Below are positions 44,927 to 47,596 of a DNA stretch of 64,000 nucleotides, one piece after another. The notes below the pieces were generated by a model, which made no database searches, was not told where the DNA came from, and was given only the letters and a program-made list of their open reading frames with translations. The DNA comes from Flavobacteriales bacterium. GTDB lineage: Bacteria > Bacteroidota > Bacteroidia > Flavobacteriales_F > PHOS-HE28. The first letter of the stretch is position 1, and each line of letters starts with the position of its first letter. The stretch covers positions 1 to 64,000 of the forward strand of contig JAIOIH010000086.1 of NCBI GenBank assembly GCA_019912395.1, written 5' to 3'. A program made the translations under genes and the position numbers.

Positions 44927-44973
44927 CATGAACCTCTCCGGGCAACTTGGCTTGGAGCAAAAAACAGAAGGAA

Positions 44974-45129
44974 ATGGCAGCAGTAGTTGAAGCGTATTGC
45001 GTGAAGTGCAAGGCCAAGCGCAACATGAAGGATGCCGGTGAAGTGACGATGGCCAATGGCCGTAGGGCCATGAAGGGCAAGTGCCCTGAGTGCGGTACGG
45101 GCATGTTCAAGATCTTGGGCAAGGCTTGA
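44974..45129 (+). CDS. DUF5679 zinc-ribbon-like small protein
   Basis: A 51-residue protein starting MAAVVEAYCVKCKAKRNMKD. Two CxxC pairs (YCVKCK and KCPECG) suggest a structural zinc ribbon. The intervening AGEVTMANGRRAMKG and the ending GMFKILGKA match the DUF5679 pattern, found as single-domain proteins across bacteria. Its role is unknown; zinc or nucleic-acid binding is a guess from the fold. A non-ATG extension to 44947 is possible. A 20-codon frame (44928-44990) starts just after the promoter and overlaps this start, so it could act as a leader. A hairpin follows the stop. Confidence 0.75.
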   Translation: MAAVVEAYCVKCKAKRNMKDAGEVTMANGRRAMKGKCPECGTGMFKILGKA

Positions 45130-45134
45130 CCGAT

Positions 45135-45166
45135 CGGTGCCGTCCCTCCTTTTTGGGGCGGCACCG
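45135..45166 (+). terminator. Hairpin after the DUF5679 gene
   Basis: CGGTGCCG (45135-45142) pairs with CGGCACCG (45159-45166), extended by CCC/GGG inside. There is no T-run after it. The stretch from here to 45316 holds no recognisable gene; a 77-codon minus-strand frame there has no family resemblance. Confidence 0.55.
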
Positions 45167-45316
45167 GTCCGGTTCGTTCATGGGCAGGTGCCGTCATCAC
45201 CGCCAGCGTTCGATCCTTTATAGACAGCATTGATCCCGATTCGCGGAGGCAATGCGTCCTTGGCCCCGGTATTGGTCATGCTTCCAGTTGTCCGTGCGGG
45301 GCAGCGCATCGGCCTA

Positions 45317-45430
45317 AGAACCTGTTCAGGATCTCTTCGAACGCGGCCCCCGGCCTCTTTTACACCCATGCTTCGCCGGAACGAAAAATAGACTCGCCGT
45401 CCATCGCCCAAGAGATCCTGAACAGGTTCT
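45317..45430. mobile_element. MITE-like element with perfect 21-bp terminal inverted repeats
   Basis: AGAACCTGTTCAGGATCTCT and one more T at 45317-45337 is the exact reverse complement of 45410-45430, with 72 bp of non-coding sequence between them, giving a 114-bp unit. No transposase is encoded. The right end overlaps the stop codon of menE (CTA at 45429-45431 on the plus strand, TAG on the minus), so insertion may have created that stop. A target duplication is not obvious. It could alternatively be a large bidirectional terminator hairpin, but a perfect 21-bp repeat with a long spacer is more like a miniature transposable element. Confidence 0.6.
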
Positions 45431-46544
45431 ACGGCACCAGTCGGCGCACCACTTTACCGGAACCGGTCCGCAGAAAGGAGCGCAAGGCCGTGACCCTGCG
45501 GGGAAGTTCGTGTTCCGACAATACGCTGAACAAGGCCGTTAATACCTCGTCGAGAACTTCCTCCGAACCGCGATCCGTTTCCAACACCAAGGCCACGGCT
45601 TCACCCAGGCGGTCGTCCGGGAAGGCCATGAAGAAGTGCGGATAGGGGATCACCCCTGCGGTCTTCGCTTCCAATTGTTCGGGATGGATCTTCTTTCCGC
45701 CGCTGAGGATCACGTTGTCGATGCGGCCCAACCAGCGGAAGTGCGTGTCGTCCGCCAGTTCCACAAGGTCGTTGGTGATATGGGCCTTCGTGGTGAGGTG
45801 CGGCGTATGCACCACCAAACAACCGCGCTCATCGGTGCTGAAGCTCACCCTACCGATCGCGCTATAGTGGTCGCTCGGCGTGTCCCCGTTGATGCGGCGC
45901 ACCGCCACATGTGTTACCGTCTCCGTGCTTCCGTAGCCTTGGTATACCGCCGTGCGCAAGCCTTGCAGGTCCTCCTCCAACGCAGCGCTAACAGGTCCAC
46001 CGCCGAGAAGGATCGTGTCAAACTGTTCCTCCACACGGGTGCGGTCCTCCTGGATCGCGCGGTGCAGTTGCAGCGGCACCATCGCCGTGAACAGGAATCG
46101 GTCCGGGACATTCAGGTTGTCCAGGACACTTCCTCGCGGATCGATGATGTGCAGGTCCAGCCCGAGTGCCATGGCACGCACGAGCATCATTTTCCCGGCG
46201 ATAAAATCGCAGGGCAAACAGAGCAGGACACGATCGCCCTCCTCAAGGTTGAAGGTCGCCGCTGTGAGCCGTGCGCTGTTCACCAGGTCCCGGCGCGAGA
46301 CCCGGATCCTCTTGGGCGGCCCGGTGGTGCCGCTTGTGGTGGCGCTGATCGCCCTACCGCTCATCAATGAAAGTTCCAGGGCCAAATTGTAGAGGGACTC
46401 CTTCCACACCTCGGCTTTCTTACGCTTGTTCCTCAGCGCCTGAAAGTGAAGGAATGCGGCAATACCCTCCAGCTGCTTCCCGTCCAAGGTCAGGGAATCA
46501 AATGCCTGAGCGATCGTACGGGCATATTTCCTGCGTGCCGCCAT
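45429..46544 (-). CDS. menE: o-Succinylbenzoate-CoA ligase
   Basis: A 371-residue adenylate-forming enzyme that activates o-succinylbenzoate with ATP and CoA. Motifs of the AMP-binding family are present: ISATTSGTTGPPKRIRVS (P-loop-like A3), VYQGYGSTETVTHVA (A5), and FRWLGRIDNVILSGGKKIHPEQLE (A7-A8), with a C-terminal RTGSGKVVRRLVP carrying the catalytic Lys. It is shorter than E. coli MenE (about 450) because the N-terminal part is reduced, as in many Bacteroidota. The start at 46544 overlaps the menC stop by 4 bp. The stop codon lies in the terminal repeat of a MITE-like element. It is the last gene of the men operon. Confidence 0.88.
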   Translation of the reverse strand: MAARRKYARTIAQAFDSLTLDGKQLEGIAAFLHFQALRNKRKKAEVWKESLYNLALELSLMSGRAISATTSGTTGPPKRIRVSRRDLVNSARLTAATFNLEEGDRVLLCLPCDFIAGKMMLVRAMALGLDLHIIDPRGSVLDNLNVPDRFLFTAMVPLQLHRAIQEDRTRVEEQFDTILLGGGPVSAALEEDLQGLRTAVYQGYGSTETVTHVAVRRINGDTPSDHYSAIGRVSFSTDERGCLVVHTPHLTTKAHITNDLVELADDTHFRWLGRIDNVILSGGKKIHPEQLEAKTAGVIPYPHFFMAFPDDRLGEAVALVLETDRGSEEVLDEVLTALFSVLSEHELPRRVTALRSFLRTGSGKVVRRLVP

Positions 46545-47596
46545 CACATCAGTCGATCGAGCTCCCATGGCACCTCGGGGCGGTAGCGCAATTCGCCGGC
46601 TTGCACAGTGAGCGGGGATGGGATATTGTCCGTGTAGACACTGCCCGTGCCCAGCCCTTGGGGAATACCGGGCTTCAAGGTCGCTGTCCATTGGGCAATG
46701 GCATTCAAACCAATGCTGCTTTCCAGTGCCGAAGTGATCCACCAGCCGATGTTGCGCTCCTGCGCCAGATCGATCCATTCCTGCGCGGAGGCCCAGCCGC
46801 CGACCAAGCTGGGTTTGATCACGATGAGCTGGGGCCGCACATGTTCAAGCAGTTCCTTTTTGGCCAATCGGGTGTTCTGGCCGATCAGGTCCTCGTCCAA
46901 TGCGATCGGTAGTGGTGTTCCGGCACAGAGCTCGGCCATTATTTCATAGCGACCGGCCGCAACAGGCTGCTCAATGCTCTCCACTTCCAGCTCGGCCAAG
47001 CGCTCCAGCACGGGCATGGCGGTGCCGTGCGTGAAGGCTCCGTTGGCGTCCACGCGCAAGGTCAGTTCCGATGCATTGAACTCCTTTCGCACGTCAGCCA
47101 GTAGTTCCAGTTCATCCTCGATCCCGATGGCTCCGATCTTCATCTTCACGCAGCGGCTGCCACCATCGATCTGGGCTTTGATCCGCTGGCGCATGGTGAC
47201 CTTATCACCCATCCAGACCAGGCCGTTGATCGGGATGCCCGCACGACCCAAGGTGAACTCGGAAGGGAAAAGCACTTTGCTCCCGCTTGCAGCCAGGTCT
47301 TTCAAGCACTGCTCCACTGCGAACCGCACGCAGGGCACTTGGACCAGGTCACCCGTCAAGCGCTGTTCCCAGTTGGAGGTATCGCGGCACAGCTCGATCA
47401 GCTTGGTGCGCACATCGGCCGGGAACTCTGCACTGTGCCCGGGAAAGAGCGCAGCTTCCCCGATGCCACGGAGCCGTGGCCGGCTCGGGTCCCAGGCGAT
47501 CAGGTACCACACCGTGCGCTCCTGGATCACGCCCTTGCTGGTGCCCAGAGGGAAGCGCGGGTTGAGGGTAAGTTCCTTCCAAGTGGCGTGGATCAT
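46544..47596 (-). CDS. menC: o-Succinylbenzoate synthase
   Basis: A 350-residue enolase-superfamily enzyme that dehydrates SHCHC to o-succinylbenzoate. Visible active-site elements of the barrel domain are CVKMKIG (the KxK general acid/base pair), LRVDANGAF (first metal Asp), VESIEQPV (Glu), PIALDEDLIG (third ligand) and LIVIKPSLVGGW with the final Lys. The N-terminal capping domain includes WYLIAWDPSRPRLRGIGEAALFPG. Length fits the family; dipeptide epimerases share this fold, but men-operon context settles the call. Coupled to menE by ATGA; a 58-bp gap with a dispersed-repeat copy separates it from menA. Confidence 0.93.
   Translation of the reverse strand: MIHATWKELTLNPRFPLGTSKGVIQERTVWYLIAWDPSRPRLRGIGEAALFPGHSAEFPADVRTKLIELCRDTSNWEQRLTGDLVQVPCVRFAVEQCLKDLAASGSKVLFPSEFTLGRAGIPINGLVWMGDKVTMRQRIKAQIDGGSRCVKMKIGAIGIEDELELLADVRKEFNASELTLRVDANGAFTHGTAMPVLERLAELEVESIEQPVAAGRYEIMAELCAGTPLPIALDEDLIGQNTRLAKKELLEHVRPQLIVIKPSLVGGWASAQEWIDLAQERNIGWWITSALESSIGLNAIAQWTATLKPGIPQGLGTGSVYTDNIPSPLTVQAGELRYRPEVPWELDRLM

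Follow-up and report, generated by a model that had tools for sequence, protein, structure and literature searches.

ISLrh belongs to the IS1031 subgroup of the IS5 family and, in the accessible part of its description, has 17-bp ends (GAACCTGTCTAGTATCT), a preference for TNA targets and a 3-bp repeat (PMC12016507). Among the short mobile repeats of other bacteria, QMITE2 of Coxiella (PMC5896051) and RU-1 of enterobacteria (PMC2759123) are presented, in the portions of these reports that we draw on, with copies that lengthen the C-terminus of a protein or remove its normal stop. For the eukaryotic NuwaII transposons, the available text gives a target of the form C(TNA)G (the bracketed triplet being the one duplicated), most likely with a 3-bp TNA duplication (PMC4482050).

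Here we analyse a window of 64,000 nucleotides (the whole stretch of DNA under study, from contig JAIOIH010000086.1 of a Flavobacteriales bacterium) and, within it, a short palindromic element at the 3′ end of a gene for a menE-like AMP-binding ligase. We conclude, with a probability of about 0.93, that the feature is a decayed MITE of an IS1031-type IS of the IS5 family, inserted by a trans-acting transposase at C(TAA)G over the menE stop. The MITE family is a new one, ordinary in kind and gene-sparing in its landing.

As far as the accessible description of ISLrh goes, the element resembles it in its ends (GAACCTGTTCAGGATCT here vs. GAACCTGTCTAGTATCT in ISLrh), in its TNA target and in its 3-bp duplication, but measures only 112 bp and carries no transposase gene (PMC12016507); an IS5-type transposase in an IS of a sister genome is a further likeness to the IS1031 subgroup. 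Like QMITE2 and RU-1, the family consists of short mobile repeats that sometimes lie at gene 3′ ends; in contrast to the copies presented in the parts of those reports noted above, the 3-bp duplication here leaves both the stop and the protein ending unchanged (PMC5896051, PMC2759123). The likeness to NuwaII, whose families are eukaryotic, is drawn from the target preference alone, again as given in the available text (PMC4482050).

The element and its repeat family

A repeat search recovered the perfect 21-nt inverted repeats with which the sequence-only reading began (45317-45337 and 45410-45430, around a spacer of 72 nt) and stretches the arms to 26 nt at 92%. Comparison with the family sets the boundaries of the element proper (Table 1): the outermost A/T pair of the 21-bp repeat is part of the flanking triplets, which lie outside, and the element itself has the ends GARCCTGTTYRGGATCTC. 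The fold of the window strand far exceeds that of shuffled sequences (z = −6.35; none of 200 shuffles was equal). The only frame of at least 60 aa inside the element is a portion of one 77-aa frame, and there is no transposase gene. This minus-strand frame (45178-45411) enters the element from the adjoining stretch 45130-45316, in which the start of a 173-aa minus-strand frame, overlapping the DUF5679 and trpS-side genes, is also listed; we see no convincing gene among the open frames listed for that stretch, the greater part of which (45167-45316) had been described as gene-free. Just 3′ of the DUF5679 gene, at 45136-45165, a GC-rich hairpin with a T-rich loop (GGTGCCG...CGGCACC) can be read by eye; it is possibly the terminator of that gene, and the promoter/terminator scan called no terminator there.

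Table 1. Positions in the window of the element, its flanking triplets and the two convergent genes
Feature	Position	Strand	Remarks
Small DUF5679 protein, convergent neighbour	44947..45129	+	PF18930, E 7e-16
Left copy of 3-bp target duplication, TAA	45315..45317	+	Identical TNA triplets at 34/68 well-bounded members
MITE proper	45318..45429	.	112 bp, internally deleted vs. ~161 bp full length; family alignment, middle block of ~50 bp absent
Left terminal inverted repeat, GAACCTGTTCAGGATCTCTT	45318..45337	+	Sequence, repeat search and arm matches
Right terminal inverted repeat	45410..45429	-	Same 20 bp, read on the minus strand
menE-like AMP-binding ligase gene	45429..46631	-	PF00501, E 8.6e-21; start chosen by us
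menE stop codon, TAG	45429..45431	-	TA belongs to the flanking triplet, G to the element (its first base); identical G after the target in the rebuilt empty site
Right flanking triplet, TAC	45430..45432	+	One substitution from TAA; presumably decayed

The MITE-like character first proposed from the window is borne out: the family has multiple copies, TNA target duplications and a nested copy, and its termini recur in an IS5-family IS of a sister genome. A search for further copies of the ends gave 18 matches to the arm of the window element in its own genome at up to three mismatches, vs. none to the reversed control pattern in the same genome at the same threshold, and a 151-bp query found 21 pieces there. 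At up to two mismatches the arm is present in 13 of 58 genomes, namely in 13 of the 35 of the same genus (its own genome included) and in none of the 23 of other genera; with a 163-base copy as the query (E ≤ 1e-5), 23 of 45 genus genomes have a match. Viral contigs, scanned for exact occurrences of the arm, had none. Within the genomes searched, the family appears to be restricted to the genus.

From the matches to the arm and to the 163-base query, some short or contig-end matches of the latter being left out, we fetched 100 places and kept the 68 in which both arms reach at least 15 of 18; the other 32 were dropped as decayed, truncated or single-armed. Most members measure 161 or 162 bp between the flanking triplets, and two other copies in the genome of the window are reduced through internal deletion to 59 bp, the window copy having 112 bp. 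A full-length copy is palindromic from end to end (fold z = −8.54; 72% self-match in reverse). Two elements with family ends, of 337 bp (L286, G015:C15) and 307 bp (L287, G064:C377), are possibly composites or copies with another insert.

Identical triplets flank 34 of the 68 well-bounded copies, all of them TNA (15 TAA, 7 TTA, 7 TCA and 5 TGA); at the other 34 the triplets are not identical. The end finder slightly rewarded identical triplets, and ends set by arm score alone were unchanged in 68 of 68 copies, as was the count. For the target-site counts, the four copies without any TNA flank were removed; the remaining 64 insertions show a preference for C(TNA)G, with C at −1 in 49 and G at +3 in 50. 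Genome G005 has a copy nested in another, with TGA duplicated: once the nested copy and one TGA are excised in silico, what remains aligns collinearly with an uninterrupted copy (identical in 144 of 167 columns). Because collinearity is restored with a single TGA, the nested copy shows both movement and 3-bp duplication. The flanks of the window copy itself, TAA and TAC, differ by one mismatch, and TAC is probably a decayed copy of the TAA duplication; it is at the level of the family that target duplication is seen. With its 3-bp TNA duplication and its GA.CCTGT-type ends, the family shares these two features with the IS1031 subgroup.

Insertions at stop codons and single arms

With genes called by codon usage, the 64 insertions divide into 32 that coincide or overlap with a stop codon (24 of them exactly at it), 24 between genes and 8 within called genes. 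Greedy longest-ORF calls, which are poor in GC-rich DNA and placed 26 of 64 insertions inside genes, were dropped in favour of this caller. A first test on open frames of at least 80 codons found a stop exactly at the flanking triplet in 31 of 68 insertions vs. 12.8% of 4826 TNA sites.

Such a bias could mean that the family actively prefers stop codons, the transposase or its target complex being attracted to the ends of genes more than the C(TNA)G motif would account for. A control taken from the same flanks points in this direction: outside coding sequence, stops are found at 32 of 56 insertions vs. 110 of 943 TNA sites and, with the C(TNA)G motif matched, at 24 of 37 insertions vs. 14 of 53 sites (p = 0.0005); of the 13 arm sites in the genome of the window that have no clear partner, moreover, 9 coincide with a stop that closes an open frame of at least 60 codons. 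However, the effect weakened on moving to separate control DNA, which comprises 181,307 bases from the window and 29 menE loci and consists in part of orthologous loci: 32 of 56 vs. 163 of 634 for all TNA sites (p = 3e-6), 24 of 37 vs. 12 of 34 for sites matched to C(TNA)G (p = 0.018) and, where such sites are restricted to gene 3′ ends, 24 of 27 vs. 12 of 20 (p = 0.035). All of these counts depend on home-made gene calls, and two of the insertions (L068 and L088) have common flanks. Selection against insertions in promoters and genes can yield an excess of this kind. Related ISs elsewhere are listed with clear ends at 21 loci (L162-L189), and at 4 of these the junction carries the stop of an open frame (at least 80 codons); at least three further Spiroplasma loci, out of a number not given, are labelled as lying at a stop.

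We consider an active preference unlikely. The stop-codon bias comes largely from C(TNA)G targets surviving at stops, with a modest excess left, and it would be explained by selection for harmless sites more than by an active search for stop codons. Insertions that target stop codons are not reported in the literature that we consulted, a published case still being possible.

Three of the 13 partnerless arm sites consist of a single 16-bp palindrome flanked by identical TNA triplets. Each arm of the element contains short stretches that are repeated directly in the other (CAGG, TCT), and slippage across the hairpin could therefore leave one arm behind. Solitary 16-bp palindromes are present at open-frame stops in genome G000 on contigs C11, C62, C73, C75 (two), C68, C79, C87 and C31; the solitary palindromes of this genome are likely to be collapsed copies. 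A broader proposal, in which a genus-wide MITE finds harmless landings at stops through C(TNA)G and its 3-bp duplication, is possibly drawn to gene ends in addition, and collapses by slippage to 16-bp stop-codon scars, is tentative and, taken as a whole, doubtful.

The end of menE

We take the ligase gene that meets the element to be menE, following the sequence-only reading and the menaquinone-pathway look of the neighbouring frames. That reading had placed two bases of the menE stop inside the right repeat, correctly, as the 21-nt arm ends at 45430 and the stop occupies plus-strand 45429-45431. Its suggestion that the element supplies the stop holds for the third base, G, only, and an identical G was already present in the rebuilt site. 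On the minus strand, the site rebuilt without the element and one triplet reads GTG CCT TAG GCC and the present one GTG CCG TAG; both end in Val-Pro-stop with the same stop codon. The element begins with G, the same base as the one that follows the target, and for this reason neither the TAG stop nor the final residues of menE would have changed.

Relatives of menE are found in 44 of the 45 genus genomes, and the closest comparison for the empty site, itself a reconstruction, is with relatives ~69% identical in the menE protein. We examined 29 menE loci of the 43 relatives with a match, of which 28 were readable (L121 was not). In all 28, menE ends 0-4 codons short of the end in the window, each with its own TGA, TAA or TAG. 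The gene thus keeps a similar end in relatives that have no element, which, together with the TAG of the rebuilt site, speaks against the idea that the insertion sets the C-terminus of the enzyme. In one relative (G020, L122) the convergent DUF5679 gene directly follows menE with no insert.

The same loci bear on a reading without any mobile element, in which a transcription terminator or a regulatory RNA is conserved at the menE end. The element does contain a strong hairpin, and its position between convergent genes would allow it to end transcription from either side. A terminator was expected, when the MITE was first suggested, to be single-copy and conserved in place among relatives; instead, the sequence is multi-copy at many loci, and paired arms are absent within 330 bp of menE in 28 of 28 readable relatives, two of which (L105 and L109) have one weak single-arm match each, with 4 of 18 mismatches, that may be due to chance. 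The target duplications and the nested copy also argue against a terminator. The promoter/terminator scan called nothing inside the element, and so no hairpin followed by a T tract, its single terminator-like site falling in menE, and Rfam (E ≤ 1) gave no family near its cut-off, only two matches far below it, of which mir-3193 (21 bits vs. 55) lies on the hairpin of the element. A terminator or RNA without a mobile element is highly improbable; a secondary terminator role of the inserted MITE is possible.

Candidate parent insertion sequences and mobilisation

The sister genome G009 holds an IS of ~0.92 kb (L159) with the ends GGGCCTGTTTGGGATCTTTT / TAGCCTGTTCAGGATCTTTT; it has no clear target repeat of its own, and its transposase is broken by frameshifts. 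A 100% match to contig CAUJFM010000072.1 ('Bacteroidota bacterium isolate KLAP54') is most likely the same place. In G065, a 90%-identical relative, itself a relic, adjoins a right end of the same kind. Its 111-aa open piece matches NF033580 IS5_3 with E 3.4e-26 and 92 bits, the whole-protein cut-off being 110 bits, and PF01609 with E 1e-12, above the cut-off; it is through this piece that an IS5-type DDE transposase is recognized, for the sister IS only. Matching termini are seen in the G009 IS and at the G065 relic, but the transposase is frameshifted in one and a relic in the other, and IS and MITE are alike over only ~20 bp at each end. Relatives of the 111-aa piece are found in only 3 of 45 genus genomes, with no match in the genome of the window, and neither that search nor the PF01609 and PF13340 matches in 14 genus genomes gave an intact transposase with matching ends.

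The other IS types from the PF01609/PF13340 search were set aside since their ends (e.g. TGTCCGGTTAA, GCATCTCAAAA and ATCGCGTCTTAA) do not match, the G065 relic excepted. The sequence GAACCTGTTGA near the G004 transposases is internal to an element with different ends, and the same layout is found on contig C49 of the genome of the window. At L160 (G015:C38, ~1426-1441), TAA followed by GAACCTGTTTGCA marks another IS end of this type. It coincides exactly with the stop of a gene, presumably for a fatty-acid desaturase, and has a truncated IS5-type transposase piece behind it.

Related ISs in named genomes, for which we used the best 80 of 489 stretches, have GA.CCTGT-type ends and TNA repeats. 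Among these 80, identical TNA triplets were found by script at 39 of 49 chromosomal loci of Spiroplasma ixodetis, the remaining 10 comprising 4 pairs that combine TAA with TTA and 6 loci at which no sensible ends were found; of 30 other loci with a result, 23 have an end score of at least 18, and identical TNA triplets flank 17 of these 23. In these counts the end finder leaned towards identical triplets, and one IS type (L181) has different ends. In the single 2.1-Mb genome of Spiroplasma ixodetis SHM (L189-L240), IS1031-type copies of 862-864 bp occur by the dozen, flanked by TAA or TTA repeats.

A REP/BIME-like repeat mobilised by a RAYT transposase would likewise be short, multi-copy and palindromic throughout, as would a repeat of the ERIC or Correia type. 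Any of these is scarcely credible in view of the 3-bp TNA duplications and the IS5-type ends, in which the REP, ERIC and Correia groups would differ from the family, and in view of the presence in the genus of an IS5-family IS with the same ends.

For the MITE reading we propose the following course of events. A transposase acting in trans would recognize the 20-bp ends and place the element at a C(TAA)G site that overlaps the stop of menE, with duplication of TAA; owing to the initial G of the element, menE would keep TAG and its C-terminal residues. Later, ~50 bp of the interior would have been lost and one flanking triplet mutated, in an order that we presume. Mobilisation in trans by the transposase of such an IS is something that we only infer, since no intact transposase with these ends was found in the genus genomes searched and the genome of the window itself has no match to the 111-aa piece.

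In conclusion, short palindromes at gene ends in one Bacteroidota genus, otherwise mistakable for terminators or binding sites, are explained as transposon insertions and their likely scars, and the idea that an insertion set the end of MenE is corrected. The combination of a TNA target, a 3-bp duplication and a preserved stop may hold for other IS1031-type elements in compact GC-rich genomes.
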